Assembly (NCBI GenBank): GCA_003135435.1
Contig: PLBR01000235.1
Location: 1 to 47,817 of the forward strand
Direction of reading: 5' to 3'
DNA from: Nitrospira sp.
GTDB taxonomy: Bacteria; Nitrospirota; Nitrospiria; Nitrospirales; Nitrospiraceae
DNA: 47,817 bases
The translations under genes were made by a program, and so were the position numbers. Under the pieces are notes generated by a model. The model did no database searches. It had not been told where the DNA came from and was given only the letters and a program-made list of their open reading frames with translations. This document shows positions 24,489-40,220 of this stretch, one piece after another. The first letter of the stretch is position 1, and each line of letters opens with the position of its first letter.

Positions 24489-24866
24489 ATGATGGCTCAA
24501 GGGACACAACAGACCTGGTGGGATAGTCCGAAGTTTACTATTGACTGCGTGCTAGCGAACGTAAGCAAGCAGCTTGAAGCGGACGGGTGCGTCCTCGAAT
24601 GCTTAGAGGGTGGGCATAAGCTCACCACCCCTGATCACCTGAGAGCAGGGGATTTCGTGAAAGTCCAATTATGGTTGGAAGGCGAGGAGGCCTTTATAGA
24701 TATCCGGCTGGCGGAAGTCAGAAAGGTTCACGACCACTGGATCACGGTGGAAGTGATCCAGGTGAGCCCAAATGACCGGATGAGATTGAAACGATTTATC
24801 GATGCCCCCGCAACCATGCACATCGAAAAACCTGCTCTCATCGACCATCTTCTCATTCGGGCCTAG
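24489..24866 (+). CDS. PilZ-like domain protein (atypical)
   Basis: A 125-residue protein. The beta-barrel pattern of PilZ domains is visible: DGCVLECLEGGHKLTTPDHL, then AGDFVKVQLWLEGEEAFIDI, then AEVRKVHDHWITVEVIQVSP, and a terminal helix NDRMRLKRFI. PilZ domains bind cyclic di-GMP through an N-terminal RxxxR and a D/NxSxxG motif. Neither is present here, so nucleotide binding is doubtful and the protein may be a structural or partner-binding variant. Two tandem ATGs start the frame; no Shine-Dalgarno sequence is seen. The TAG stop lies within the tip of the following repeat element. Confidence 0.65.
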   Translation: MMAQGTQQTWWDSPKFTIDCVLANVSKQLEADGCVLECLEGGHKLTTPDHLRAGDFVKVQLWLEGEEAFIDIRLAEVRKVHDHWITVEVIQVSPNDRMRLKRFIDAPATMHIEKPALIDHLLIRA

Positions 24867-25081
24867 CCCGCATTATTCATGAAGCTTCTGCTGCAAGCGC
24901 GGATGCCTGTCTCAAGCGAGACGGGCGAGACGGGGGAGGGTTGATCTGGTTCATCTGGTCTATCTGGTTCAACCAAACAAACGAGATAAACCAGATAAAC
25001 TAGAGAGACCAGCCGGTGCTCGCGCTCCTCGCGCGCCACTCCGCCATTTCGCGACGCACCTTCATGAATAATGCAGGCTAG
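24863..25081. mobile_element. Palindromic element, CTAGCCCGCATTATTCATGAAG family
   Basis: The left end ctagcccgcattattcatga (then ag) and the right end cttcatgaataatgcaggct (then ag) are 22-base inverted repeats with one mismatch. The interior has a gcgagacgggcgag module and a hairpin whose arms are 9-base tandem repeats: atctggttc/atctggtct/atctggttc on the left (24944-24970) and gataaacca/gataaacta/gagagacca on the right (24985-25011). No frame. The first TAG is the stop codon of the upstream gene. Confidence 0.75.
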
Positions 25082-25286
25082 CTCAGTGTCAACCTCTCCG
25101 GATGGAATCAACAACACTACGGGTCGCTCGGATCAAATCGATCGCAGGGACGGCACAGCAGTCGAACGTACCGTGTGCTCGCCAGGTTGACATGGCGTGG
25201 CTCGGAGCCATTGGTGCGGCGGAATTGTCCGTGGATGGTTGGTCCAAAAATAGGGGAGGCACGCATCAAACGCAACCCCTTGTTTT

Positions 25287-25376
25287 TGGTGCCGGAGGCC
25301 GGGATTGAACCGGCATGGGCCTGTTAAGCCCGAGGGATTTTAAGTCCCTTGCGTCTGCCAATTTCGCCACTCCGGC
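25287..25376 (-). tRNA. tRNA-Leu (anticodon TAA)
   Basis: A 90-base minus-strand tRNA with acceptor GCCGGAG pairing with CTCCGGC, a D-arm GGCGAAATTGGCAGACGC, and an anticodon arm with stem AGGGA/TCCCT and loop CTTAAAA (anticodon TAA, codon UUA). It has a long class II variable arm (CGGGCTTAACAGGCCCATG) that marks tRNA-Leu. The T-arm is CCGGTTCAATCCCGG, and the 3' end is discriminator A with encoded CCA. All parts are intact. Confidence 0.96.
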
Positions 25377-25434
25377 AGCAGGGGCCGCAGTGGCGGGACT
25401 CTAGCATCGGGGTCTAGGTCGGTCAAGGTCGGCC

Positions 25435-25609
25435 TAGGAGCCTGTCCAACATTGACCTTTCTACTGCAGCGAACGATCCGCGACTATCTGCGTCGTGCTC
25501 GGCCCGCTCACAAGAACCGTGAAACGTGGGTCAGCCTCAGGCCTGCGGCCTCGCATCTGGCCACACCTCCTTCGCCTCGTCACGAACGGCAATGTTGGAC
25601 CGGCTCCAA
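25435..25609. mobile_element. Palindromic element, GGAGCCTGTCCAACATTG family, copy 1
   Basis: The left end taggagcctgtccaacattg and the right end caatgttggaccggctccaa are 20-base inverted repeats with two mismatches. About 175 bp with no frame. A single end of the same family (taggagcctgtccgacatt) occurs at the right edge of the window, inside the histidine kinase locus. Confidence 0.7.
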
Positions 25610-25612
25610 GTA

Positions 25613-25646
25613 GGCGCAAACAGCCTAGCAAGAAGCTGTTTGCGCC
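25613..25646. repeat. Perfect 12-bp hairpin beside the element
   Basis: ggcgcaaacagc (25613-25624) and gctgtttgcgcc (25635-25646) are exact inverted copies with a 10-base loop. It lies downstream of the YtxH gene (minus strand), without a T-run, so it may be an mRNA stabiliser, or part of the neighbouring element or its insertion target. Confidence 0.6.
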
Positions 25647-25677
25647 ACAGGTCTGGCCGCTGAGTGAGCCACTCCAA

Positions 25678-25938
25678 CTACACCGCTTCGATCCGCGGCC
25701 TCTGATCGTCCGTCTGAATGAGAGGCTTCCTGCGATCCATCACTTCTTTCACCCCGGATTGGACCGCCCGACTCCATCGAGTCGCTTGCAATTGGGCCTT
25801 TTTCGAATAGCGACCGACATCACGCCGGGTCTCTGCCCCCGTTTGCGGCGCGAAGAGTAATCCAATCCCCGCTCCGATCACCGCCCCACCTGCCACCAAC
25901 GCTGCGACCTTCGCTACCTGACGTCCCTGGTCTGACAT
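25678..25938 (-). CDS. YtxH-domain protein
   Basis: An 86-residue protein from ATG 25938, with a very strong AAGGAGGT 5 bases upstream. A frame extension upstream is ignored for that reason. After a short polar start there is a glycine-rich hydrophobic segment (VAALVAGGAVIGAGIGLLFA), then PQTGAETRRDV, the hallmark of the YtxH family, and a charged helical tail. Such proteins are membrane-anchored and are often linked to general or envelope stress, with no defined activity. It is a single gene between the repeat cluster and lgt. Confidence 0.85.
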   Translation of the reverse strand: MSDQGRQVAKVAALVAGGAVIGAGIGLLFAPQTGAETRRDVGRYSKKAQLQATRWSRAVQSGVKEVMDRRKPLIQTDDQRPRIEAV

Positions 25939-26277
25939 GGTGAACCTCCTTGACACGGTTGAATGAAGAATGTGAGTGCCGACACGCTGCATGCTCATGC
26001 TCTATTTCCTACAGCACTAAGCGTGCCAGACGAGAAACCACAAAATCTCCCATGATTCGTCGCAGCCCTGTTCCTACGATTAAGAGCGCTTAATTTTCAG
26101 TTGTGTTTTCCTCACAGTTCACGACACAGGCGTGACAGAAAACCAACATACGAAAGTGGTAGGCCTCTCAAACTGGCTCTGAGCAACGATCAGAATTGAT
26201 GTTCCGCAGGGCAAACGCGTGCTTGCAATGGTTGAGACCCTCACCTATTATTCTCAAATACGCCACATGAGGCACTA

Positions 26278-27093
26278 ATGACTTTGTTGCACGCGATCCC
26301 CTACCCCAACATCAGCCCGGTCTTTCTTGAACTGGGCCCCCTGCAGTTTCGCTGGTACGGTCTGATGTATCTGATCGGACTGGCGGGCGCCTATTTCCTG
26401 ATCATGCGTCGAGTAGAGTCGAAGGGCCTCTCCATGACCAAGGACCAGGTCTACAATATGGTCGTGTGGGCTGCGTTTGGGGTGTTTATCGGAGGACGGC
26501 TCGGCTACACCCTCTTCTATAATTTTTCTTACTATGTGCAGCATCCGGCCAGTATCGTGGCAGTCTGGGAAGGGGGCATGTCGTTCCACGGCGGCCTGCT
26601 CGGAGTCATCGTTGCCTTGTTTTGGTTCAGCCAACGGCAGGGTATTCCCGCCTACCAGATTGCAGACTTGGCAGCCGCCGCCACGCCAATCGGGCTAGGA
26701 TTCGGGCGACTCGGCAATTTCATCAATGGGGAGTTGTATGGCCGAGCCACCGATGTCGACTGGTGTATGGTGTTTCCGAGTGGAGGGCCTGCCTGCCGCC
26801 ATCCCTCACAACTGTATGAGGCAGGTCTTGAGGGTGTTTTCTTGTTTACCCTGTTATGGGTCATCGCGAAAACCATACCGCCGTCGGGAACAATTTTTTG
26901 GAGTTTTATCACCGGCTATGGAGTCTGCCGGATGATCGTAGAATTCGTTCGCGAACCGGATGCCCAACTTGGTTTTATCCTCGGATCCTTCTCGATGGGC
27001 CAACTCCTCTCCCTTCCCATGGTCGTGGTGGGAATCTTTATGCTCGTCCTCGGTTATCAGCGGCGGACCTTGATTCAGGCTAAATCTCAGTAA
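26278..27093 (+). CDS. lgt: Prolipoprotein diacylglyceryl transferase
   Basis: A 271-residue inner-membrane enzyme with seven or so helices. It moves a diacylglyceryl group from phosphatidylglycerol to the lipobox Cys of prolipoproteins, the first step of lipoprotein maturation. Visible signatures: FRWYGLMYLIGLAGAYFL, the GGRLGYTLFYN loop, WEGGMSFHGGLLG (conserved His), and the family pattern GRLGNFINGELYGR with catalytic-site Arg and Asn, then CRHPSQLYEA. ATG 26278 follows GAGG. The 3' end overlaps the convergent zincin gene by 7 bases. It would serve the lipoproteins predicted at 6202-7863 and 10351-11142. Confidence 0.96.
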   Translation: MTLLHAIPYPNISPVFLELGPLQFRWYGLMYLIGLAGAYFLIMRRVESKGLSMTKDQVYNMVVWAAFGVFIGGRLGYTLFYNFSYYVQHPASIVAVWEGGMSFHGGLLGVIVALFWFSQRQGIPAYQIADLAAAATPIGLGFGRLGNFINGELYGRATDVDWCMVFPSGGPACRHPSQLYEAGLEGVFLFTLLWVIAKTIPPSGTIFWSFITGYGVCRMIVEFVREPDAQLGFILGSFSMGQLLSLPMVVVGIFMLVLGYQRRTLIQAKSQ

Positions 27094-27452
27094 GGCATCT
27101 CCTCGTCATCCAGCCCGACATGGTGTCCGAGTTCATGGACGACCGTGTCGCGGACCTCGTGAATGACTTCGGCCTTCGTCCGGCAGAGACGCAGGATGGG
27201 GCCTCGATAGATGGCGATACGGGCAGGCAGTTCACCAGCAGGCTGGAAAAAAGATGACTGATCAATCGGGACGCCTTGATACAGACCCAGCAGATCGTCT
27301 TCTGATTCCAGTTCAAGATCCTGCAGAACATCGGATGACGGTTCCTCTTCAACCACGATGGATACCTCATCGGCGAGCGTTGCGAAGCGGGCTGGCAGTC
27401 CAGCGAGTGCCTCTTGGATCCAGGCGTCGAATTCTTCCGGCGAGATAGTCAT
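27087..27452 (-). CDS. Minimal zincin-like metallopeptidase-family protein
   Basis: A 121-residue protein from ATG 27452; GTG 27473 is an alternative start. The C-terminus carries HEVRDTVVHELGHHVGLDDE, an HExxHxxG-like zinc site written HELGHH. This matches the short possibly proteolytic 'zincin-like' family (PF06262), whose members are 110-140 residues long. The rest fits the family: FDAWIQEALAGLPARFATLA at the start and ARIAIYRGPILRLC before the zinc helix. It is cytoplasmic, with unknown substrate. It is convergent with lgt. Confidence 0.88.
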   Translation of the reverse strand: MTISPEEFDAWIQEALAGLPARFATLADEVSIVVEEEPSSDVLQDLELESEDDLLGLYQGVPIDQSSFFQPAGELPARIAIYRGPILRLCRTKAEVIHEVRDTVVHELGHHVGLDDEEMPY

Positions 27453-27647
27453 TGGATGTTTAGATCGTGGCACCGTTCTGGTCCCTCGCGATGTCTATCA
27501 CTCAGTTCTCCCGAGCAACAACTTGACGATCACACCGATCACAAAGCCTCTCAGGAGAAATACGTCCTCCCAGTACACCAAAATGCATCTACGCCGCACA
27601 TAGGATTTGGACTCGGTTAAGGGGGCTAGGTCACAACAGCAGCGACT

Positions 27648-30600
27648 TCACACGCTAAGCTGTTCAAGGACTGTTTTAGCCTCAATCAAGTCGAGGTTGT
27701 CGACGCCTTCGGTGAATCTGGAGTACACGGCCTTCAAGATGCGTGTGGCCTCATCCACTTTATTTTGTTTCCTCCAGAGCCTAGCCAGGCTCGTGGCGGT
27801 TCGAAGTTCAAACATTTTTGCATGCTGATCTTGCGCAATCTTCAAGGCTTCACACAAACACTGTTCTGCTGCCTGGACGGAGGGGTCGGATTGTGCGAGC
27901 AGCAGTTCGCCCTTCAGACGAAGCAGTTCCGCTTGCCAAAACAGTTCTCCCCCAGTTGCAGCAAACTTCTGCGCTTCCTCAATTGCGCCCAAGCCTTCGT
28001 CAATGCGTTTGTGTCGTAAATATATTTCTGCAAGCAAAGCCAATGTAAAAGTGCTGTTGAGACCTGCACCTGTGACTCGAATAGCGGAAAGTCCGTGTAT
28101 TAACTTACCGAGACCTTCCTCTTGCCCATTTTCGGCCAAAGCCCATCCTTGAAAGGTCGTCGCCAATGCCAAACCCAATTCAAATGAGTATTGCGTTGAA
28201 ACCGCAATGGCTTCGTCGGCAAGCTCCAGCGTTCTCTTCGCATTGCGGAAAGTGGAATAGATCCAGGAAAGATAAACTAAGGTAATAACTCGAGTGAATG
28301 GGTGTTCCAACTCCCTCGCCATGCCAATGACCTCCAGCGCCAGCGTTTCAGCTTGCTCAACCTCGCCTAATATCCACAATGTCCTGGCCAGGTAACTCGC
28401 CGCGGTTATCCCGGGATCTTGGGCATAGAGAAAGGCATGTGAGCGGTGTTGATTCGGATCATACAGGGATTTTGCGGTAATCAGATGGGTTCGTGCTTCA
28501 TCAAACCGACCGAGGTAGAAATAGGTCGTACCCAAATTCCGGTGAGCTTCAATCAGTAGATCCGAGCTTTGCTCGTGGTTAGCCAGAGCGAGGAGATTTT
28601 CGGCTAGGCCGCGAGCATTGGCGAGTTGCCCTCTGACCAGATGGAATATCCATAATCCCCAAATGGCGCGAAACTGATGCAGGGAACCGCTGTTCTCCTG
28701 TGACAACTCCATCGCCCTTCGATAATTGTGTTCCGTTTCGTCGGATGCATATCCTTTTACGGACACCAAGGGGACTCCGCGTGCAATGAGGAGGTCCAAC
28801 TCCAGGGCATTACGTTCCTGGCCTTGCGGCAGATCCGTTAGCAAATCTAGCGCCCTATTATAATGACTGAGCGCTTCGATATTGGCTGATCGTTCCGCAT
28901 CTCTGCGAGCTGCAAGTTGCCAATAATCAATTGCCTGACCGGTCAATCCTGCCTGTTCATAGTGATAAGCCAGGAGCTCCGGTTCCATTTTTACCCTCTC
29001 GGGGAACCTGCTCTCCAGCGTTTTGGCAATTCGCGCATGGAGTACTCGCCGAGGTTTCTTGGGGAGGGTGCTGTAGGCAGCTTCTTGGACTAGAGCATGC
29101 TTAAAGTGGTATGTCGCAAGGGGTATCTCGCCCTCTTGGAAAATGAGCCCGGACGCGACGAACCGGTCGAGCGCTTGCCTCAACTGGCTGTCCGGCATTT
29201 CGACCGTGGCCCGTAACAGCTCGTAGCTGAATTCACGTCCGATCGCTGCTCCGGTTTGGACAATCTCTTTGGCCGGCCCCAATCGGTCCACCCGTTCCAT
29301 GAGCAACGCGTGCAGATTGTCCGGAATGGGCAATTCCTTTAATGTGGCCTTCAAGGTAAATGCATCGTTGTTCTCAGTCAGCAGCCCGGATTCCAGCACA
29401 TTTTCCGTCAACGCTTCGATATAGAGAGGCACGCCATCGGCCTTCGCCAGAATCGCCTGCTGCACCTCGGGCGGCAGCGTTTTCCCTCCTGTCATCGTCG
29501 CCATGAGTTCAGCACTCTGCCGACGTGGAAGCCGGCTCAGCGTCAGAAACGTCACGTGACTATAGTCCGCCCACACCGGCTTGAAGTCGGGGCGAAAGGT
29601 GATCAGCACCAACACGCGCATCTGCCGAATGCGGTCAATGATTCGCGTCAGGAGGTCCAGCGTCGTGGGATCTAGCCAATGGGCATCTTCCACAATGAAC
29701 AACAGTGGACAGCGATCGGCCAGCCTTTGTAGATGATGCACGAGGGCTTCCAGCGTCATTTCCTTGCGTTTTTCGGATGACATAGTGAGCGGCGGGTACC
29801 GGTGATCTCCTCGAATCGAGAGTAGATCTGCAAGCAATGACACCGTGTCCTGGTTATCAATTCCGCTTTCGCGAGCCATGACGTCGAGTTTATTCAGTTG
29901 CGCCTGGGCACTGTCCTGACTGGCGAGTCCCGCTGCCTGCCGCAGAAAATTGATCGCCGGATAGAGCGCCGTATTGGTATGGTACGGTGAACAGTGAAAT
30001 TGAATCGTCTGGTACCGTTCATCGGCGAGGCGGTCACACAGACTATGAGTCAGTCTCGATTTTCCGATGCCGGCCTCACCACACAGGAGCACGACCTGTC
30101 CTTCGCCGCCGACGGCTTCGCGCCAGCGACCCACCAGGAGTGCGAGCTCCTGCTCTCTGCCGACGAAATTGGTTAAGTGGCTGGCTCGATGGGACTCAAA
30201 CCGGCTGGCCGACAATCTGATACTCAATACCTGCCAGGCTTGGACGGGTGTATCGAACCCTTTCAGCGACACGACGCCAAGATCCGCGAACTCGAACTCA
30301 TGTCCGACAAGACGTTTCGTCACCGGGTCTATGACTATCTGATTGGGTTGTGCCAGTGCTTGGAGGCGAGCGGCAAGATTCGGGGTTTCGCCGAACACTG
30401 ACCGTTCCTTGGCGGTGTCCTGCCCCATCAGTTCGCCGACGACGACGTGACCCGTCGCGATCCCGATGCGTGCTGCAAGACTAACCCCTGGATGGGGAGT
30501 GTCGTGATTGAGCGCCGTCACCGTATCCAGAATCGCCAGTCCGGCATGGACCGCGCGTTCCGCATCGTGTTCGTGAGCCTGGGGGTACCCAAAATAGACC

Positions 30601-31040
30601 AACATCCCATCACCCATGTATTTGGCGATATAGCCATTGAACCGACCAACCGCTTGGCTACAGGCGTCTAAAAAACGTCGGACCACATCCTGGAGGTCTT
30701 CAGGGTCCACCCGGCGAGACAGCGCGGTCGAATCCACCAGATCACAAAACATCACCGTCAACTGGCGCCGTTCGGCTTGCTCTCGCTCGAGAGGGACTGG
30801 CGGCGTGTCCAGACTGACGCCAAGGGGGAGAGACCCCGGGCCCCTACCTTCAGCGCTCGGTGACAATTGCGCGATCGCGCGCAAGAGTGTTTTTCGATGT
30901 CCCAGTAAGACACCCAGCGCCTCCAGGTCGCTCTCCTTCAGCTCGGGTAGTACATCCCACGTGATCGCATTGTGCTGAAACGCCTCAGAGTATCTCCCGA
31001 GACCAAGGTTATCCAGCCACGCTGATACACGATCATTCAT
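27648..31040 (-). CDS. SAM / class III adenylate cyclase / ATPase / TPR regulator
   Basis: A 1130-residue multidomain protein. Residues 1-60 are a SAM domain (VSAWLDNLGLGRYSEAFQHN). Residues about 90-270 are a class III nucleotide cyclase with both metal-binding aspartates (MFCDLVDST, Asp100; YMGDGMLVYFG, Asp144) and NLAARLQ at the substrate end. Residues about 290-560 are an AAA-like ATPase of the STAND type, with FVGRE at its start, Walker A GEAGIGKS (321-328) and VEDAHWLDP as Walker B. The rest, to 1130, is a TPR superhelix. The arrangement suggests a sensor that gates cAMP (or cGMP) synthesis by ATP-dependent assembly. The ligand is unknown. It is a single gene, and no partner regulator is adjacent. 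Confidence 0.93.
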   Translation of the reverse strand: MNDRVSAWLDNLGLGRYSEAFQHNAITWDVLPELKESDLEALGVLLGHRKTLLRAIAQLSPSAEGRGPGSLPLGVSLDTPPVPLEREQAERRQLTVMFCDLVDSTALSRRVDPEDLQDVVRRFLDACSQAVGRFNGYIAKYMGDGMLVYFGYPQAHEHDAERAVHAGLAILDTVTALNHDTPHPGVSLAARIGIATGHVVVGELMGQDTAKERSVFGETPNLAARLQALAQPNQIVIDPVTKRLVGHEFEFADLGVVSLKGFDTPVQAWQVLSIRLSASRFESHRASHLTNFVGREQELALLVGRWREAVGGEGQVVLLCGEAGIGKSRLTHSLCDRLADERYQTIQFHCSPYHTNTALYPAINFLRQAAGLASQDSAQAQLNKLDVMARESGIDNQDTVSLLADLLSIRGDHRYPPLTMSSEKRKEMTLEALVHHLQRLADRCPLLFIVEDAHWLDPTTLDLLTRIIDRIRQMRVLVLITFRPDFKPVWADYSHVTFLTLSRLPRRQSAELMATMTGGKTLPPEVQQAILAKADGVPLYIEALTENVLESGLLTENNDAFTLKATLKELPIPDNLHALLMERVDRLGPAKEIVQTGAAIGREFSYELLRATVEMPDSQLRQALDRFVASGLIFQEGEIPLATYHFKHALVQEAAYSTLPKKPRRVLHARIAKTLESRFPERVKMEPELLAYHYEQAGLTGQAIDYWQLAARRDAERSANIEALSHYNRALDLLTDLPQGQERNALELDLLIARGVPLVSVKGYASDETEHNYRRAMELSQENSGSLHQFRAIWGLWIFHLVRGQLANARGLAENLLALANHEQSSDLLIEAHRNLGTTYFYLGRFDEARTHLITAKSLYDPNQHRSHAFLYAQDPGITAASYLARTLWILGEVEQAETLALEVIGMARELEHPFTRVITLVYLSWIYSTFRNAKRTLELADEAIAVSTQYSFELGLALATTFQGWALAENGQEEGLGKLIHGLSAIRVTGAGLNSTFTLALLAEIYLRHKRIDEGLGAIEEAQKFAATGGELFWQAELLRLKGELLLAQSDPSVQAAEQCLCEALKIAQDQHAKMFELRTATSLARLWRKQNKVDEATRILKAVYSRFTEGVDNLDLIEAKTVLEQLSV

Positions 31041-31151
31041 AATGGATACAGTCGATGGTGGATATTCCAGCCTGTGAAGGATAGGATTAACTGCGTTAAG
31101 CGTAGGAGATTACTCGTTGCGGGGAGTAATCCTTCAAGCAATGATACACGT

Positions 31152-31328
31152 ATGATGAACAGCGCTTCCACGAATACGATCCCGGAACGGCCTTTCATTC
31201 GACAGCTGGAGCGCTGGCTGGTCGGCCTGGCGATGATGGTCATCGCGTACCTGCTTGAGAAAGCCGTGTTACGTTCGATCAGGCGCAATGGCACGAAGTC
31301 TTCGTCGCGGGACCGCACTGCATCGTAA
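31152..31328 (+). CDS. Candidate small membrane protein
   Basis: A 58-residue frame from ATG 31152. One hydrophobic segment is flanked by basic residues (RQLERWLVGLAMMVIAYLLE then KAVLRSIRR), a believable single-pass membrane protein. No strong ribosome binding site is seen. It lies in the 300-base gap between two minus-strand genes, on the opposite strand, and ends 13 bases before the end of the UspA-ABC1 gene. A real gene is plausible but unproven. Confidence 0.4.
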   Translation: MMNSASTNTIPERPFIRQLERWLVGLAMMVIAYLLEKAVLRSIRRNGTKSSSRDRTAS

Positions 31329-31341
31329 ACCATTGTCATCT

Positions 31342-33426
31342 TCAACGCCCTCGCAGCAGATCGATCACCAGGCCAACGGTCAGTAGACCGGCGACGACTC
31401 CGAATGTTATCGGTACCCACTCTGCCACACCCGTCGCCATGACCGTGAGTCCGCTGGCCAGGACACTTGCCGCAGCGGTCAGGCCGAGCGCCAGACGCCG
31501 TCCCGTGCGGCGCACCATATCCTCCAGCGAATTGGCCCGGAAGTTCACCACAAGCTTTTGGCCAGGGCTGGCACCGATGAGGTGTTCGACCGCCTCGATC
31601 ACGCGCAAAGCCCGTACTTTAAACTTTTGCGCTTGATACACCAGTGTCTTCGGGTTGAGCGTAGCACCCATGCGCTTGACCACCCAGCGCGTCAAGAACT
31701 TGCCGGCTATGTCGTAAGGATCGAGTGCTGGATCGAGATCTGCAGTCGCCAGTTGTACCTGCGCGAGGGCCTTGATGGCGAGCGTGAGCGAGGCCGGTAG
31801 CGGGACCCCATGCCGTAACGAGACCGCACTCATTTCTTGCAGAATGGGCCCGATCTGCATCTCAGCCAGCGCGGCCGTGCGATATTTCACCATGACTTCC
31901 GCGATCTCGCTTTGGAATCGAGGCACATCGAGATCGTTGCAATCGATGGCGCCCGTCATCATCAGTGTGATATCGGTGACAAACGCAGCATCTTCCTGCC
32001 ACAGCGCCATCAACAATAACAACAGATGCTCGCGGAAGTCGGCTCCTACCTCGCCGACCATCCCGAAATCGAGAAAGTAGACGCGGTTCTTCCACCACAT
32101 CAGGTTGCCTGGGTGGGGATCGGCATGGAAGAAGCCATCGACGATGATCTGTTTGTAATAGCTCTCCAGCAGTTGACGGGCGGCCTGGATGCGCTCTGGA
32201 CCTGCCGGTGCCTGCTTGATCGGTATGCCCTGGATCTCTTCCATCACCAATAATCGGGACGTGGAGAGATCCCGGTACACGCTGGGTACGGCAAGGCGAT
32301 CATAGCCTGCGAGCACACCCTGCATCCGCCCGATGTTGTCGGCCTCCTGACGGAAGTCAAGTTCACGGTGGAGCGAGGTGGAGAGGTGCTTGAACACGGC
32401 CTCCATATCAATCACCCGATTGAGCGCGGGACGCTTTCCGACTTTCTCGGCAAACACCTCGAGCAGGGCGAGGTCCTGTTCGATTTCAGCACGAGCGGTG
32501 GGTCGCTGAACCTTGACGACAACCCGATCACCGTTTTCGAGTGTCGCACGGTGGACCTGAGCGATTGTGCCGGCGGCGAGGGGACTCGGATCGATCGACT
32601 TGAACACATCTTCCCACGGTACTCCCAATTCCTGCTCCGAAACCCGGACCACGTCGCGCTCAGTCATGGGCGGCACGTGGCTCTGCAACAGGGCAAGTTC
32701 CTCAATGTACTCTACCGGAAGGAGATCCGGGCGGGTTGATAACACTTGTCCGAGTTTCGAGAATGTCGGACCCAGCTCTTCCAGGGCCGTGCGTAAGCGC
32801 TTGGCCTGCTGACGGCGGATGGTCGTATCCGGTTCGTCGGATTGGCCGAACAGCTCTGTGAGGCCATGTTTCGCCATCACGGTTGCGATTTGCGTAGCGC
32901 GCGCTACCAGCCGAGGCTCAAAAGGCGGAATGTCACCCTTCGGTCGGTGAGCTTGCACCGAGTCCGATCCAGGCTCACCAGTAGATGACAAGGTGTTCAC
33001 GATAATCACGGTGCAGCGGGCATTGTGACTGATGCGGTTCGGTACGTTGCCGAGCAAAAACTCCTTTCGTCCCGCCATGCCAAAATTGCCGACCACCAGG
33101 ACATCGATGGCCTCCTGCTCAACGGCGCGGACGATCGCCAATGCCGGATCGACATCAATAACGACCAGGGCATGACCGCGCTCCTCGGCGACCTGCCGCG
33201 CGAAGCCCGCCAGTTCATTCTTGGCGGTAGCAGCGCGTGTTTGTTCGGCTGCGCCGAATTCTGTGGCGGACGGATACTGCGGAACCACTACCTGTACCAC
33301 GAACAGCTCTGCGTCGTAGCGATCGGCGAACCCGGCGGCCCAGTGGACGGCCTGGTCGGCGGGTTCGGAGCGGTCGGTGCCTACCATCACGCGCCGTATG
33401 GCGTGACTTTTTAGATGCTTTTCCAT
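31342..33426 (-). CDS. UspA - ABC1 (UbiB-like) kinase fusion protein
   Basis: A 694-residue protein. Residues about 9-148 are a universal stress protein domain (VMVGTDRSEPADQAVHWAAG). Its ATP-binding end reads GNFG, nine residues, then GN, close to the G-x2-G-x9-G-(S/T) motif. Residues about 175-600 are an ABC1/UbiB atypical kinase: KLGQ with LSTRPDLLP, AAGTIAQVHRA (the Ala-rich loop that replaces the Gly-rich loop), VVVKVQRP, DFRQEADNIGRM, FHADPHPGNLM and VYFLDFGMVGE. The C-terminus has two membrane helices (ALGLTAAASVLASGL and ITFGVVAGLLTVGLVIDLL). UbiB proteins support ubiquinone or lipid handling at the membrane. The fused UspA domain could sense adenine nucleotides or stress. The fusion is visible directly; its function is inferred. 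Confidence 0.92.
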   Translation of the reverse strand: MEKHLKSHAIRRVMVGTDRSEPADQAVHWAAGFADRYDAELFVVQVVVPQYPSATEFGAAEQTRAATAKNELAGFARQVAEERGHALVVIDVDPALAIVRAVEQEAIDVLVVGNFGMAGRKEFLLGNVPNRISHNARCTVIIVNTLSSTGEPGSDSVQAHRPKGDIPPFEPRLVARATQIATVMAKHGLTELFGQSDEPDTTIRRQQAKRLRTALEELGPTFSKLGQVLSTRPDLLPVEYIEELALLQSHVPPMTERDVVRVSEQELGVPWEDVFKSIDPSPLAAGTIAQVHRATLENGDRVVVKVQRPTARAEIEQDLALLEVFAEKVGKRPALNRVIDMEAVFKHLSTSLHRELDFRQEADNIGRMQGVLAGYDRLAVPSVYRDLSTSRLLVMEEIQGIPIKQAPAGPERIQAARQLLESYYKQIIVDGFFHADPHPGNLMWWKNRVYFLDFGMVGEVGADFREHLLLLLMALWQEDAAFVTDITLMMTGAIDCNDLDVPRFQSEIAEVMVKYRTAALAEMQIGPILQEMSAVSLRHGVPLPASLTLAIKALAQVQLATADLDPALDPYDIAGKFLTRWVVKRMGATLNPKTLVYQAQKFKVRALRVIEAVEHLIGASPGQKLVVNFRANSLEDMVRRTGRRLALGLTAAASVLASGLTVMATGVAEWVPITFGVVAGLLTVGLVIDLLRGR

Positions 33427-33481
33427 AGACGTAGATAACCTTTTAGCAAGAACAGAATCGGCATTACAGGATCAATGACTG

Positions 33482-33675
33482 TAGCAGGATGCTGAAACAT
33501 TCTGCCAGCCTGTCTTGTTCATTTGGTCTGTCTGGTCCATCTGGTCTCTCTGGTTAGTCTGGTTCAACCAAATAGACAAGACGGACCAAACAGACGAGAC
33601 AGACCGGGCTTGTCCCAGAGAGGCAGGCCAGCGAAACTCTGCTGTGCCGAAATAGTTTTTCCGCAGCCTGCTAGA
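33482..33675. mobile_element. Palindromic element, TAGCAGG...CCTGCTA family, copy 5
   Basis: The ends tagcaggatgctgaaacat and gtttttccgcagcctgctag are inverted repeats. The core is a hairpin made of five 9-base units on the left (tttggtctg, tctggtcca, tctggtctc, tctggttag, tctggttca; 33522-33566) and complementary units on the right (33567-33604). The right tip ctag contributes the stop codon of addA. Confidence 0.75.
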
Positions 33676-36600
33676 CATCAACAGCGACACCTGGCCGCAA
33701 AAAGACGAACAGAAACGAGAGAGACGGCAATCCTAAAGAACTCGCGACAGCTCGCGAATAACTATCCGCTTGGGATCGATAGTGATCCGCCCTGGCCTGT
33801 ACGTCTGCAGCCGCCACCGTATCCGTCTTATAGTCGGCAATCCAGATTCGGTCGTCCAACCGGTAAATCAAGTCAATCACCCCTTCCATCATCTGGCCCT
33901 CTCCCAAGGGCATGACGAACGGGACTTCTCGTCCTAGTACCGTCGCACGTTGCAGTCTTTTGTACGGCTCGGAGGAAAGGAAGCTCTCAAAGAGCGCGGT
34001 GAGATCTTCCGTGACGTCGGCCATCAGTTGAGGATGATCCTGTGCCACATAGCGACGACTGGTCTGCTCGATGACATTACTGATTTCAGTGCGAGGCCTG
34101 GTGAAGTCCCACTGTTCGAGCACCGCATGGGCACAGACTCCGATAAGCCGAGCCAGATCGGCATCACGCCCTGTCACAGTACGCGGGAAAACGGCCTCGG
34201 GCCTGCTTCCTGCGAGGCTCGAAGGGGTCAGCCGTCGCGACGTCGTTCGACGTTGCTCCCACTCAACTTGCCTTGCGTGGCGGCGAATGAGAATGGGGCC
34301 AAGGGCAGGAGCAGGAGCGACCTTCGACAGAGGCTCCTTCCGGTGTCGTCTCGCTGCCACCGTGGCCGGCGTGATCACACGAGTGAGGCAACTTGTTCCG
34401 ATACAGATATGGTCAGACGTCGATAGAGTCGTCTCGTCTGACATCGCTTCTCCGAGCAGAGCGAGGACCGTGTCATGCCCCGGTTTAGTGGTCTGCCCAC
34501 CGGATAAGACCAGCAGATCGCGCGCGCGTGTCATGCCGACATACAGGAGCCGCCGCTGTTCCGCCTCTTCCCGCGCCGCCATCTTCATATCCACAAGCAC
34601 GGCTCCGAGATTCGAGCGGCCTCCCATCTGCAGGCTATAACACCGGCTCGACCAATCATGATGGATAGACGGACCCTTGCGGAGATTCTTTGACCCCTGG
34701 TGCAGGCCGGGAAGAATGACCACAGGAAATTCCAATCCTTTGGCCTTATGGATGGTCAGCACGCGAACGGCATCCAGTGATTCCTCAGCCAGGGCGCTTT
34801 CTGCCTCATCCGGCTGTTGCGACACCCTGGTCATCATCAGATCAACGAACCCGGTCAACGTGAGATGGGGGCGATCGGCGAGTGTCTCGGCCATATCCCT
34901 TGTCTTCCGGAGATTGGCCACGGCTTGCTCGCCATGGAGCGACGCGGCGGCCAATTCCAGGACGGGCAATCTATCGAAGATCAGATCAATGGCGTCAGGC
35001 ACAGGTCGCAAGGGAGCGAGTTGGTGCAGTTCGACCAAGCGCTCATAGAGCCGCCTCACCATTCCTGCCTGGGGATGGTTCCAGGCAGATAGCCGTTCCC
35101 GTTGCTGGTAGTCCAGGCCCTCTATCTGCTGGAGGGCCAGTAGGTCCCGGTCCGTCATGCCGCCCAGGGGTGAACGCAAGATTCCGACCAGCGCAATCGT
35201 ATCGTGCTGGTTGTCGATGACCCGGAGGAGGTTGACCAAATCGATAATTTCCTGGCGCCGATAAAAATGCTTTTCCCCGTCAGTGATATAAGCGATGTCG
35301 TAGCGGCGAAGGGCATCGAGATAGACCTGGGCTTGGGTCAACTTTCTGAAGATCAGGGCAATGTGGCCCGGTTGGAGCGGACCGTCGCGTCGATCGCGAT
35401 CCGTGACCGTCGTGCCGGCGAGGAGCTCCTCCTTCAGCCAGCGCGCCAGCGCTTCCGCCTCCGCCCGAGTCGCAGCCTGCACATCGAACTCCTCGTCGTC
35501 CTCTCCCGGCGTGACGAGGCGAAGCTGCGCTCCGGAGACTGAAACCTCTGGCTTTCGTTGCGGCCTGGCTGCCAGCCGTTCATTGGCTGGCTGAACATGT
35601 TCGGTCGGTCGGAAGAGCCGGTCGAAAACATTGTTGACGACGTCGAGGACGGCTCCATCGCTGCGAAAGTTCGTCACCAGGGAATAGACGCCTCCCCCGC
35701 CTGCTCGAATTTTCTCCACGACTCGTTCGAAGGCTTCAATGTCGGCCCGGCGGAAGGCATAGATCGATTGCTTGGGATCCCCCACGATAAACAATTTGCC
35801 CGGTTCCAAGTCCACGTCATGCCACGCGGTCTGATGGCTGCCCGCTCGTTCACCGAGGTAGAGGATGATCTCGTACTGCACCGGATCGGTGTCCTGAAAC
35901 TCATCGACCAGGATCGCCCGATAGGTCTCTTTGATCCGAGCGCGGACGGCCGAATGGTCCCGCAAGAGGGTTTTGGCTCGGGCCAACAACCCATCGAAGG
36001 CGATCCACCCCGACGTGAGAAACCCATGATGTACCTGATCGAGGAAGGGTCGCACGAGCGTCACTACTTCTTGAAAGTATGACTGGTCAACCGTAAGGAG
36101 TTGTTGGGCGAGCCCGATGATGGAAGCCGCCTCTTGGAACGCAGCCTCATCCCATCCGGCAGGCGCCTTTCCCAGATCCTTCTCCAGGACGGCCCGTTCA
36201 TCCTGAGATACGTGAGCAAGCCCCGGCGGCCCTTCCTCCAACAAGAGTGCCAGCGACCGCACTGCAGCGGCAAGCATCTGTTCCGCCTTACGCCGTTTCG
36301 GTCGATCTTGCGCGGCAAGGAGAATGGCTGCACGACAATGCGTGGCCACGATCCAGTCACGCAGGGCGCCCTCCAAGGAGCTGGATCGGCACTGCCGATC
36401 TAGCTCATCGAGGTCTACAAAATCCCCGGCGAGGGTAGCGGTAAACTGTTGGAGATCGTCGAGGGTGGTCCCAGCCAGAACTCGTCGCCATCGATCATGC
36501 TGTGGTCCGGCTGCTCCGAGCTCATCGTCCAACCATCGGTCCCAGCCTGAGTGAAATAATTCCTTGAAACGTGATCCGTCATCCTCTTGAAATGATGGAT

Positions 36601-37021
36601 CAATCTCAGACTCAAGTGGATGGAGACGCAAGAGGTGCGCGGCAAAACTATGCAAGGTGCCGATCTGAGCTTTTTCCATCTGCTCAAGCGCCGTCCTGGC
36701 CCGTTCGCCTACTTGTTCAGCTGAAAGATGGTAACGGGTCCGGAAGGTGGCGATCATGTCATCGGCCTGCTCGGTTAAGCGAAGGAGCTGCGTGCGGAGC
36801 CGCTGCTTCATTTCTGTTGCGGCTTTGTTGGTGAAGGTGAGGGCCACGATCTCCGTGATGGCCAAGGGGTTTGGCTCTCTCATGAGGAGGTTGAGGATGC
36901 GATTGACCAGGATTGTGGTCTTGCCGGTCCCGGCTCCCGCAACCACCACGACATTGCGGTCCCAGATAGTCTCCGCCAGGAGCCGATCCTGGGAGTCCGC
37001 GAGTGTCAGTCCATCACTCAT
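33671..37021 (-). CDS. addA: AddA-type helicase-nuclease subunit
   Basis: A 1116-residue UvrD/REP superfamily 1A helicase with a RecB-like nuclease end. Motif Q/I region: LADSQDRLLA and Walker A AGAGTGKTT (28-36). LTFTNKAATEMKQRL is motif Ia. DEFQDTDPVQYEII is the Walker B helicase motif, GDPKQSIYAFRRADIE is motif III and VLTIHKAKGLEFPVVIL is motif V. The C-terminal PD-(D/E)xK nuclease has GVIDLIYRLDDRIWIADYKT. It processes double-strand breaks with AddB and feeds RecA. It starts inside the end of addB (8-base overlap), so the two are coupled. Its stop lies in the tip of a repeat element. Assigned by domain layout; the AdnAB and RecBC families were considered. Confidence 0.9.
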   Translation of the reverse strand: MSDGLTLADSQDRLLAETIWDRNVVVVAGAGTGKTTILVNRILNLLMREPNPLAITEIVALTFTNKAATEMKQRLRTQLLRLTEQADDMIATFRTRYHLSAEQVGERARTALEQMEKAQIGTLHSFAAHLLRLHPLESEIDPSFQEDDGSRFKELFHSGWDRWLDDELGAAGPQHDRWRRVLAGTTLDDLQQFTATLAGDFVDLDELDRQCRSSSLEGALRDWIVATHCRAAILLAAQDRPKRRKAEQMLAAAVRSLALLLEEGPPGLAHVSQDERAVLEKDLGKAPAGWDEAAFQEAASIIGLAQQLLTVDQSYFQEVVTLVRPFLDQVHHGFLTSGWIAFDGLLARAKTLLRDHSAVRARIKETYRAILVDEFQDTDPVQYEIILYLGERAGSHQTAWHDVDLEPGKLFIVGDPKQSIYAFRRADIEAFERVVEKIRAGGGGVYSLVTNFRSDGAVLDVVNNVFDRLFRPTEHVQPANERLAARPQRKPEVSVSGAQLRLVTPGEDDEEFDVQAATRAEAEALARWLKEELLAGTTVTDRDRRDGPLQPGHIALIFRKLTQAQVYLDALRRYDIAYITDGEKHFYRRQEIIDLVNLLRVIDNQHDTIALVGILRSPLGGMTDRDLLALQQIEGLDYQQRERLSAWNHPQAGMVRRLYERLVELHQLAPLRPVPDAIDLIFDRLPVLELAAASLHGEQAVANLRKTRDMAETLADRPHLTLTGFVDLMMTRVSQQPDEAESALAEESLDAVRVLTIHKAKGLEFPVVILPGLHQGSKNLRKGPSIHHDWSSRCYSLQMGGRSNLGAVLVDMKMAAREEAEQRRLLYVGMTRARDLLVLSGGQTTKPGHDTVLALLGEAMSDETTLSTSDHICIGTSCLTRVITPATVAARRHRKEPLSKVAPAPALGPILIRRHARQVEWEQRRTTSRRLTPSSLAGSRPEAVFPRTVTGRDADLARLIGVCAHAVLEQWDFTRPRTEISNVIEQTSRRYVAQDHPQLMADVTEDLTALFESFLSSEPYKRLQRATVLGREVPFVMPLGEGQMMEGVIDLIYRLDDRIWIADYKTDTVAAADVQARADHYRSQADSYSRAVASSLGLPSLSFLFVFLRPGVAVDV

Positions 37022-40000
37022 CGTGTACTTTCTGTTTTCTCAACCGGCGTAAGACTCGGGCCTGGGGAGACCGGTAAGAGCGCCACCAGGCCATAGCATC
37101 GTGGCGGCGGCAGGCGCCTGAAAATTCGCAGTAGTCGCAATAGCCATCGGGAAGAATGAAAAACTCTCTGCGTGTAATGCCTTGGACCAATGTGGAGAGC
37201 GTCTGTCGGATCATGTCACCGGTGTGGCCGGTCCAGAGACCCGCGTCAAACGTTGAGCGAGAGATCGGCTGCTTCCACTGCGGCGCCAAGAAGAGCAATT
37301 GGACATCGGTTGGTGCAGGCAGCGACGGCAGCGTCATGCGCGCATAGAGGGGTGGTTGCAGCCGAAACCCGCGCACGGCCGACAGGGCAAGGTTGCGATC
37401 CACGGCGGTGATCTCCTTCCCCTGCTTAAATTTATAGTCCACGATACGAAGCGCCGGAGGCTCAGCGCGATAATCGACACGGTCCAAGGTGCCATGAATC
37501 TTCAGGGAAACGGATAACCCGTCGGACTCCAGCGGGACGATTCCTTGGGCGGTCGCCTCAAACGCAACCGGGCGGAATCCGGTTGCCTGATACTCCGCCT
37601 GGTCGGAAGATACGGCAGCCGTGACCAATTCTGTCACCTGTTCGCAAGCCAAGGTCCAGAGCAGGGCGTGCCCCGTCCCTTGGCTTGCAGCATGGGAGGC
37701 AAACGTATTGGTCACTGCCGCATGCACCGTGGATTGCACCGTGGCCTCGGTCAGCGAGCCGTCTGGCCACTGAAGCAGCACCAACCGTTCGTAGCTCAAA
37801 CGTAGCGATTCATGAACAAGGGTCCCGAGCGTTAAGGGAGGCAGGTGGTCGTGCTGGAGCCGTCGGACAGGCTCCAGCCGAAGAACTTTTTCTGCAAAAT
37901 ACTGAAAGGGACAGGTCGCATACCGTTCTAATGCTGTGGGCGAGAAGCTCCGTTCCGCGGCCACCGGTGACACAGATGTTTGTGCGCCGACCATGCCGTC
38001 GAAGGGACCAAGCTCGGGGGATTCTCGCTCGATGGTGTTCAGTGTGGCAAGGCCCTGTTCAAAGAGTGGCCTGTCCCGTCCCATCGTATCGAGTACAGGT
38101 CGCGCATCGTAGCCCTGCAACAGGCAACCCAAGGCCAATTCCTCTGCCGGTAAGAGGTCTTGGATCGACGGCTGTTCGCTGATCCGTTGGGTCAGCCGTC
38201 GAGGGACTGTCTCTTCCAGCTTTCCGATGAATCGTGGATCGCGCATCGCCATGGCGATGAAGCCGGACGGCGCCATAACTCGTCCTGTTTCATCGGCTCG
38301 CTGGTAGGACAGATACAGCCGATTGGTTGCCGAGCGGCTGAGGAGTTCAAACAATAGCAACTCCTCTTCATGCCCGGCTAATTTCTCATCGATCTTGTAG
38401 CCCAGGGTTGATTCCAACACGACGCGTTGACGGTCACGAAGAAATGGGTCTTCACGCACGTACCGTGGAAAGAGTTTTTCGTTCATGCCAAGAACAAAGA
38501 GCGCCCGAACCGTCCGTCCGCGAGCCGTCATGGCGTCCAGCACCTGAACACCCTGGTGCCGCTCCTCTTCGATGGGGATGCTGGTCTCGTCCAATACCAG
38601 CCGGAACAATTCGGCCCATTCCTCCCATGAGAGGTCCCCTCCCAGCGGGTCTAACTCCCGTAGACGGGCCAGCGAGGACCGGACCAGCGAGCCAACCTTG
38701 CTGAGATCGGCAGGCTCGGAGAGCTCTATAGAGGGTGCGTCGAACAGGCCAGGCACGTGAACATGCGATTCCACCAGTGTGAGAAATACGTCGGTCAAGG
38801 TTCCGATTGATCCTCGCACTGGGAGAGCCCGGCAATCGTGAATCAGTTGCGACACGAATTCCCACAGGTATGTCAGCTGAGAGGTCTCGCACATCCCTAC
38901 AGTTGTTGCCTCATCGTCTTCCTCAGCCTCCGCTTCTGCATCGCGAAGGATCGACGAACTAGCCGGCTCTGCCAGGCGCCTCCATTCCACTTCCCCTTTC
39001 GTAATACCCAAGGTGTAGACGAGAGAACGCCACACATCAGGCCGGAGATTCACTCTGGCTGAACCGGCGCCCTGGGCGTGATAGAAGGGCGACGTGACCA
39101 CATCCAGCATGGCAACACGATCGAAGTCATTCAGTGGGAGCGAGACGAGGCGCAAGAGGGTTTTGACCAGGGGTTCGCGCGCCAGCGGCCGTCCAGCCGT
39201 TGACGTGAAGGGCACTAGATGATGATCGAACACCGATTGCAGCCGAGCCTGGTAGGGCTCCAACGTACGGGCCACCACGCCTATCTCGTCGAAACGATAG
39301 CCGTTCACCTCGACCAAGGTCAGGATTTCACGGCAGACCGTCGCCAGCTCCTGTTCGGCCCCGATCACGTTTGTGACGGAGAGTTCAACCAGATCCGTTG
39401 TTGCGGTCCGGTCCCCTTCCCCACTCAGATCATCATGGGTGTCTGCCAGAGGAAGGAGATGACGCTCGAAAAATTGGCGGGCAAAGAAAAAAGCTTGGCG
39501 GTCCTGCAGCGGAAAGTACAACGTGGTCGGCGCGGCGCGGACCACCGATTCGAAGAATGAGAGTTGGACCTGCGAGAGGTCGTAGAAACCATAGTAGAAC
39601 AGGCGTTGCAGCCCGTTGAGGAACGGTGAACCTGAGAGATCCCGGCCGAGTGAGGCCGCCAGATCATCCGGAGAACCAACCCCGAGCGACCGGCTGGCTT
39701 CCATGATGGCCGCATGCAGGGTGAACATGGAATGGAGCCAGATATGGTCATCCTCCTCGAAGACCCCTTCCGTGAGGGCCTTCAGCGCCGTCGTTGGAGC
39801 GACCACTGCGTCTTTCAAATCGCGCACCGTCGCCCACAGGCCTTTCCAGGTTCCTGGTGAGGCAGGTAAGCGCGTGAGCGGCTCAAGCCCTGGAAGCTTG
39901 CGTCGAACCACCTGCCGTACTAATTGTTCGAAGAAGAAATCGTCGACCAGTTGCAGGGTCGGTTCCGAACTGGTCTCGGAGACCGCCGCGAGATCATCAC

Positions 40001-40220
40001 GCAGACGGAGGGCCAGCTGGTGGAACGTCAAAAAGTGGATGTTGAGGAAAGCGTGAGGCTCGTGACGCGTGAGTAACTGTTTCAACTGCTCGACTAGGGA
40101 AGCCGAGGGGACAATGACGGCGAGCCGAGCAAAGGGATCGTCGGTCTTACAGGACCGAATGTCCTCGACGAGGGCACGATCAAGCGCTGGATGAAAAGGC
40201 CCGGTGATGATGCGAAGCAT
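37014..40220 (-). CDS. addB: AddB-type nuclease subunit with Fe-S motif and degenerate P-loop
   Basis: A 1068-residue partner of AddA. The N-terminus (LRIITGPFHPALDRALVEDI) aligns by position with the AddB P-loop but lacks the GxGKT lysine, so this subunit probably does not hydrolyse ATP there. A helicase-like middle (ADTHDDLSGEGD, EIGVVARTLEPYQARL, GRTVRALFVLGMNEKLFPRY) remains. The C-terminal PD-(D/E)xK nuclease has LRIVDYKFKQGKEI. Four cysteines form the 4Fe-4S staple expected of AddB-type nucleases: one in ALERYATCPFQYF and three in CDYCEFSGAC. ATG 40220 has a weak ribosome binding site. It is the first gene of the pair. Confidence 0.88.
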   Translation of the reverse strand: MLRIITGPFHPALDRALVEDIRSCKTDDPFARLAVIVPSASLVEQLKQLLTRHEPHAFLNIHFLTFHQLALRLRDDLAAVSETSSEPTLQLVDDFFFEQLVRQVVRRKLPGLEPLTRLPASPGTWKGLWATVRDLKDAVVAPTTALKALTEGVFEEDDHIWLHSMFTLHAAIMEASRSLGVGSPDDLAASLGRDLSGSPFLNGLQRLFYYGFYDLSQVQLSFFESVVRAAPTTLYFPLQDRQAFFFARQFFERHLLPLADTHDDLSGEGDRTATTDLVELSVTNVIGAEQELATVCREILTLVEVNGYRFDEIGVVARTLEPYQARLQSVFDHHLVPFTSTAGRPLAREPLVKTLLRLVSLPLNDFDRVAMLDVVTSPFYHAQGAGSARVNLRPDVWRSLVYTLGITKGEVEWRRLAEPASSSILRDAEAEAEEDDEATTVGMCETSQLTYLWEFVSQLIHDCRALPVRGSIGTLTDVFLTLVESHVHVPGLFDAPSIELSEPADLSKVGSLVRSSLARLRELDPLGGDLSWEEWAELFRLVLDETSIPIEEERHQGVQVLDAMTARGRTVRALFVLGMNEKLFPRYVREDPFLRDRQRVVLESTLGYKIDEKLAGHEEELLLFELLSRSATNRLYLSYQRADETGRVMAPSGFIAMAMRDPRFIGKLEETVPRRLTQRISEQPSIQDLLPAEELALGCLLQGYDARPVLDTMGRDRPLFEQGLATLNTIERESPELGPFDGMVGAQTSVSPVAAERSFSPTALERYATCPFQYFAEKVLRLEPVRRLQHDHLPPLTLGTLVHESLRLSYERLVLLQWPDGSLTEATVQSTVHAAVTNTFASHAASQGTGHALLWTLACEQVTELVTAAVSSDQAEYQATGFRPVAFEATAQGIVPLESDGLSVSLKIHGTLDRVDYRAEPPALRIVDYKFKQGKEITAVDRNLALSAVRGFRLQPPLYARMTLPSLPAPTDVQLLFLAPQWKQPISRSTFDAGLWTGHTGDMIRQTLSTLVQGITRREFFILPDGYCDYCEFSGACRRHDAMAWWRSYRSPQARVLRRLRKQKVHDE

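Follow-up and report, generated by a model that had tools for sequence, protein, structure and literature searches.

The stretch of DNA analysed here, hereafter the window, is the 47,817-nucleotide contig PLBR01000235.1 from Nitrospira sp. (assembly GCA_003135435.1). At 24944-25012 (site 1) and 33522-33605 (site 2), it carries two hairpin ladders, in each of which two runs of a 9-base unit face each other across TTCAACCA. At both sites, the ladder is enclosed in a short element with inverted ends, the shell. The host is a Nitrospira-type bacterium, and hundreds of such ladders are dispersed in the intergenic DNA of these bacteria. No description of such repeats in Nitrospira was found in the open literature. 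As argued below, the ladder is probably an unstable quasi-palindromic minisatellite: slippage and template switching would remodel it, and miniature transposons would spread it. The features of the two sites, and of one further miniature element of the window, are the following:

24945..24968, plus strand: site 1 left ladder arm, three TCTGGT at 9-base period (four units in genome G023)
24968..24975, plus strand: site 1 centre, TTCAACCA (from the sequence)
24972..25012, plus strand: site 1 right ladder arm, ACCAGA-like blocks, degenerate and spaced by 9 bases (sequence and fold)
24916..24933, plus strand: outer 9-mer run, two copies of GCGAGACGG (sequence and alignment; one unit in G023)
24863..25081, unstranded: C-family miniature element (shell) of 219 bp, with 22-nt inverted ends, CTAGCCCGCATTATTCATGAAG, and bounded by CTAG
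33522..33563, plus strand: site 2 left ladder arm, TTTGGT then four TCTGGT, 9-base period (from the sequence)
33563..33570, plus strand: site 2 centre, TTCAACCA, with a core orientation opposite to that of genome G021
33567..33605, plus strand: site 2 right ladder arm, degenerate (sequence and fold)
33482..33673, unstranded: A/B-family miniature element (shell) of 192 bp, with ends TAGCAGGATGCTGAAA and TAGCAGGCTGCGGAAAAACT and an ortholog in G021
25434..25610, unstranded: D-family miniature element, CTAG-flanked, with GAGCCTGTCC ends (also given as GAGCCTGTCCAACATTG) and many relatives across the genus

The unit of the left run is TCTGGTNNN, i.e. TCTGGT followed by a variable triplet. At site 1, exact copies of TCTGGT begin at 24945, 24954 and 24963 and are followed by TTCAACCA at 24968-24975. 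At site 2, a TTTGGT at 33522 precedes exact copies at 33531, 33540, 33549 and 33558, and TTCAACCA lies at 33563-33570. The initial annotation of this DNA had proposed that such units form the left arm of both centres and that the arms are joined through TTCAACCA, and both are indeed found at the two sites. It had also described the right arm as the same pattern reversed. This stands in so far as the right run is made of complementary blocks (ACCAAA, ACGAGA, ACAAGA or ACCAGA) at 9-base spacing, but these are degenerate and not a clean reversal, with mismatches mostly limited to one per 6-base block. The right arm reads ACCAAA-CAA-ACGAGA-TAA-ACCAGA-TAA-ACTAGA-GAG-ACC at site 1 and ACCAAA-TAG-ACAAGA-CGG-ACCAAA-CAG-ACGAGA-CAG-ACC at site 2. 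The variable triplet is not random, being mostly pyrimidine-any base-purine (YNR), with TCA, CTG, CTA and TTG as the commonest forms; the consensus of the unit is T-C/T-T-G/C-G-T followed by this triplet.

Both shells share bases with a stop codon. The ends of the site 1 element are 95% complementary over 22 nt and its first CTAG includes the stop codon (24864-24866) of the gene that lies upstream, while the right-hand TAG of the site 2 element (33671-33673) is the stop codon of a minus-strand gene (33671-37021) encoding an AddA-like UvrD helicase/nuclease. A second large gene precedes the latter on the same strand, and site 2 adjoins, just downstream, this probable double-strand-break repair operon (33671-40220, minus strand).

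Abundance, folding and host range

The ladders are far more frequent than expected by chance. With at most one mismatch, TCTGGTNNNTCTGGT occurs eight times in the window for 0.24 expected, and 263 exact matches to this two-unit pattern were found genome-wide. The statistics on the host genome given below cover 873 kb of 4.34 Mb (about a fifth), picked partly for the ladders listed there; 47 strict ladders were found in these 873 kb versus none in an equally long sequence generated by a first-order Markov model.

The two window elements fold as DNA much better than their shuffled versions (z of -6.0 and -4.4), and the RNA fold of the strand read with the addA-like gene reaches a z of -7.4. For 35 well-centred ladders, arm complementarity is 0.68 in the best register, 0.60-0.61 when the arms are shifted by 9 bases in either direction and 0.55-0.56 when shifted by 18, versus 0.22-0.44 at other shifts. 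The proposal of several pairing registers is therefore borne out, complementarity being almost as good after a shift of one or two units. Left arms pair better, though by a modest margin, with the right arm of their own locus (mean of -44.6 kcal/mol) than with right arms swapped between loci (-39.8 kcal/mol, p about 0.0004), and arms are more similar within one locus than between loci. Locus-specific compensatory pairing was rejected, as the own right arm ranks only about 10th of 35.

All 32 host-genus genomes contain the two-unit pattern (2 to 309 matches each), and the three-unit pattern is present in 10 of 148 genomes spanning the phylum, all belonging to one family and mostly to the host genus. 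A collection scan returned at least 100 stretches and, among the matches listed, almost only MAGs (metagenome-assembled genomes) named Nitrospira. Three candidates for an occurrence beyond Nitrospira were discarded: the match in Pseudomonas has only two units and is due to chance, the Bacteroidetes match adjoins a low-complexity 9-base run of another kind (CCAGAGACA), and the Acidobacteria match lies on DNA 99-100% identical to the Nitrospira-type genome G012. Since this identity is that of the flanks of its ladders, the contig of the last one (L130, QHZQ01000712.1, MAG Acidobacteria bacterium gp11 AA57) is probably mis-binned. Genome G010, used below, is MAG Nitrospira sp. isolate RCB Rifle_cladeB, as the flanks of locus L099 and of a G010 locus are 100% identical.

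Changes of the ladders at orthologous sites

The comparison of orthologous sites reveals that the ladders change in unit number, orientation and type. At site 1, the element is also present in G023, where it has gained a left unit (four versus three) and lacks one GCGAGACGG unit relative to the host (+9 and -9), and G012 has the same ends with a short interior and no ladder. A different element with GAGCCTGTCC ends, a relative of the D-family element of the window (25434-25610), occupies the same stop-codon CTAG in G010; in G008, G009 and G004, the CTAG is followed by other DNA and no such element is present. At site 2, G021 displays the same A/B ends with a core in opposite orientation and different units, while G010, G018 and G008 carry ladder DNA next to the stop codon of this site but no A/B ends (the G018 sequence is cut by a contig end). 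Elsewhere, the number of units differs by 9 bases at L043:11066, by 18 at L043:14450 and by 9 between SWDP and NEWT, and all indels within cleanly aligned ladders are of 9 or 18 bases. The suspected variation of unit number is thus supported by the relatives and proceeds in steps of one or two whole units.

Inversion of the core, which is missing from the initial annotation, is seen as well. Among 88 orthologous comparisons, core orientation could be assigned in both genomes for 46, using a 48-base core consensus derived by eye from these copies, and was discordant in 22. As some of these 46 pairs are reciprocal or concern the same site, they were grouped by hand into about 14 independent sites, 7 of which are discordant. 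Introducing a single inversion lifts the alignment score by at least 20 in 11 of 20 discordant pairs versus none of 19 concordant ones, and the evidence is strong at five independent sites (window 33521, L040:1529, L040:9713, C60 near 8.4 kb and L043:14450). The inverted segments end within the arms, at limits that differ from site to site, and the outer units and the flanks are common to both genomes.

One type of ladder can also be replaced by another. At L040:9713 and L058/L184, a TCTGGT ladder in one genome corresponds to a ladder of a 7-mer (GAAGTTC or GGTTCGA) in another genome, within common flanks. The impression that the ladders had been swapped is supported in so far as exchange is visible at these two orthologous sites. 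Globally, among repeat arrays of period 5-30, periods 9 and 7 are the most frequent, and an inverted arm is found near 63 of 107 intergenic period-9 arrays versus 4 of 25 coding ones. Additional 7-base hairpin ladders (ACGTTTC, AATGTTC, GGTTCGA/GAAGTTC) and 9-base GCGAGACGG ladders were noticed at L050:14779-14809, L040:19531-19618, L182:8068-8182 and L058/L184, and some of them alternate with TCTGGT ladders between orthologous sites.

Finally, one clean empty site was found. The A/B element at L186:13955-14247, which bears a ladder, is missing from G023, where the flanks join exactly as GTCTCTAGTCATGG; in the comparison of L186 with L109, the CTAG is present once when the site is empty, and TA is found at both ends of the element when it is filled. 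IS630-family elements insert at TA and duplicate it (PMC2170065), and an exact empty site with TA duplication is the signature of an IS630/mariner-type insertion. Therefore, IS630-like miniature elements can carry ladders along as cargo when they move.

Shells and genomic placement

The A/B and C shells are short non-coding elements, mostly of about 90-300 bp, with terminal inverted repeats. TA precedes most A and B ends, usually within CTA: CTA or TTA is found at 83 A/B ends, and GTA or ATA at no fewer than 12 more. Like IS630/Tc1-mariner-type MITEs (miniature inverted-repeat transposable elements), they are short, have terminal inverted repeats and insert at TA, usually within CTAG, with one clean empty site. 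These features are those of the shells only, as the ladder is not a terminal inverted repeat, is not always bounded by such ends and also occurs without MITEs. As for an autonomous partner encoding a DDE transposase, no convincing long element with A/B or C ends was found in the 873 kb of host DNA and 20 related loci.

The ladder is a separable module that is not limited to two families. It is carried by 15 of 27 A/B, 2 of 30 A/A and 1 of 14 C elements, so that the core is missing from about half of the A/B copies and from almost every A/A or C copy. Copies without the core had been named beforehand as a refutation, but they indicate that the ladder is a module rather than providing an argument against one. 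Of the claim that this module occurs in two unrelated sets of ends, its separability and its presence in unrelated shells thus hold, whereas the restriction to two families does not. Nor are the runs always located inside palindromic elements: only 14 of the 47 strict ladders lie in paired A/B or C elements and another 15 are no more than 220 bp from a single such end, for comparison with 12% of random 520-bp windows that hold such an end.

The ladders are almost all intergenic. Only one of the 43 that could be placed lies inside an open reading frame called by our own simple gene caller, so that runs in coding DNA, a possible objection raised beforehand, are rare. The 42 ladders located off reading frames and contig edges fall in 27 tandem, 9 convergent and 6 divergent gene gaps, which is near the baseline; for convergent gaps, the latter amounts to 95 of 695 gaps, or 69 of 404 among gaps of at least 100 bp.

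Origin and maintenance of the ladders

The reading that we regard as probable is that of the unstable minisatellite proposed at the outset. Each DNA strand can form a hairpin, with several alternative registers that are offset by 9 bases. During replication, slippage of the folded arms would lead to the gain or loss of whole 9-mers, while template switching between the arms would invert the core and make the arms of one locus alike. Indeed, template switching between inverted repeats leads to arm homogenisation and spacer inversion (PMC8604942), although that work concerns short single inverted repeats in yeast genes, and not a tandem-repeat ladder present in many copies. The main vehicle of their spread would be non-autonomous IS630/mariner-type miniature elements, which insert at TA, often in CTAG, and carry the ladders as cargo, and copy exchange, by gene conversion or by template switching through shared outer arms, would replace one type of ladder by another.

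A permissive background may be provided by the loss of SbcCD, a hairpin nuclease that limits palindrome-driven rearrangement in Escherichia coli (PMC3315005). SbcD (TIGR00619) matches only one of the 32 host-genus genomes, G026, versus 13 of 14 controls, and SbcC (PF13558) matches the same single genome versus 12 of 14 controls. As a sufficient cause, this loss is ruled out by the ladder-free genomes of the sister genus g6 that lack SbcD and by G026. As ladder-free relatives also lack SbcD, its loss is at most permissive.

Several points weigh against this reading. No recognisable miniature-element end lies within 220 bp of 18 of the 47 ladders, which implies either fast decay of the shells or a second route of spread, and the cognate transposase was not found. 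G026 possesses both SbcC and SbcD yet also carries ladders, whereas many g6 genomes without SbcD are ladder-free, and the loss of SbcCD may thus be coincidental. At the discordant sites C60:12867 and G008/G009, a single inversion adds little or nothing to the alignment. Furthermore, the compared genomes are mostly fragmented MAGs in which hairpins are easily misassembled, with N gaps in some elements, so that some flips could be assembly artefacts.

The ladder behaves as a small-scale bacterial counterpart of Foldback-type elements. As in Foldback/Galileo of Drosophila (PMC3573991), the inverted arms are made of tandem repeats in variable number, with expansion and contraction of units, copy exchange and chimeric elements. 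However, Galileo is an animal element of the P superfamily whose arms are hundreds of bases long and reach the element ends, whereas the arms of the ladder have 30-60 bp and either lie inside a small IS630-like shell or occur without one; in the copy with the clean empty site, the termini are the non-repetitive shell ends. It is conceivable, at rather low probability, that the ladders form a bacterial foldback-type genome parasite, whose interchangeable 9-mer and 7-mer ladders replace one another at fixed sites, flip continually, are sustained by the lineage-wide loss of SbcCD and possibly spread by themselves via single-stranded replication intermediates. BrickBuilt of Porphyromonas gingivalis (PMC4596501) also is a minisatellite within a MITE, intergenic and with a strain-variable unit number at one locus, but it is made of about 19 copies of a 23-nt direct repeat, and facing inverted arms, core inversion and exchange between unrelated shells are not described in the parts of that source consulted.

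Among the rival explanations, mobility of the ladder itself would leave opposite orientations as independent insertions; the ladder would then be foldback- or REPIN-like, and a tyrosine HUH transposase might mobilise it in single-stranded form. The 18 ladders without a known shell end, the site 2 ladders devoid of A/B ends in G010, G018 and G008, the good conservation of the core across loci and genomes and the presence of Y1 (RAYT-type) transposase remnants all point in this direction. Yet no clean empty site or target duplication of a bare ladder was found, ladder-free comparisons differing in their flanks too; the inverted segments end inside the arms and share outer units and flanks, and the RAYT-type genes are few and mostly fragmentary. 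We therefore consider such mobility unlikely. In the host genome, seven matches to PF01797 (L191-L197), a tyrosine (Y1) transposase, were recorded, several of which contain stops or are truncated by the end of a contig. Like REP/REPIN elements (PMC3733652), ladders are high-copy intergenic palindromes found in both orientations, but the former are 20-40 bp palindromes tagged by GTAG or CGTC and associated with a RAYT, whereas ladders have arms of repeated TCTGGTNNN units and are much larger (60-130 bp in total), and no GTAG- or CGTC-type terminal tag was seen on them by inspection. A RAYT-driven REPIN was rejected, the Y1 transposases being few and mostly broken.

A host function under selection, as RNA or DNA hairpins acting as bidirectional terminators, mRNA stabilisers or protein-binding arrays, appears quite unlikely as well. 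Their position can persist during unit turnover, as at C60:12867, where ladder sequence lies between two convergent stop codons in five genomes; furthermore, the predicted RNA fold is very stable and the arms remain complementary. Nevertheless, convergent gaps are not enriched (9 of 42 versus 95 of 695) and no T-run follows the stem at either window site; a terminator role was rejected. In addition, both presence and orientation are polymorphic, ladders are replaced by other ladders, and no Rfam match was obtained for those of the window, where a tRNA is the only match. We think that most copies are selfish or neutral hairpins devoid of any host function.

That inversions and unit differences are largely artefacts of MAG assembly is very improbable: although many relatives are fragmented MAGs with N gaps inside elements, the differences consist of consistent 9-mers, the cores are complete, with flanking DNA on either side, and separate genome projects agree. 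A dedicated invertase or phase-variation system flipping the core is the least credible explanation, for although orientation differs at about half of the orthologous sites, the limits of inversion within the arms vary between sites, the neighbouring genes are unrelated between ladders and no associated recombinase was seen, no genome-wide recombinase search having been made.

In practice, hairpin ladders can break or misjoin the contigs of Nitrospira MAGs. More largely, as SbcCD normally holds down long inverted repeats, this lineage, which harbours many tandem-repeat hairpins with no SbcCD detected, is a natural experiment on palindrome stability. Its orthologous series, which includes sites without element, shells without ladder, ladders of three or four units, inverted ladders and replaced ones, makes it possible to separate slippage, template switching and transposition by sequence alone.

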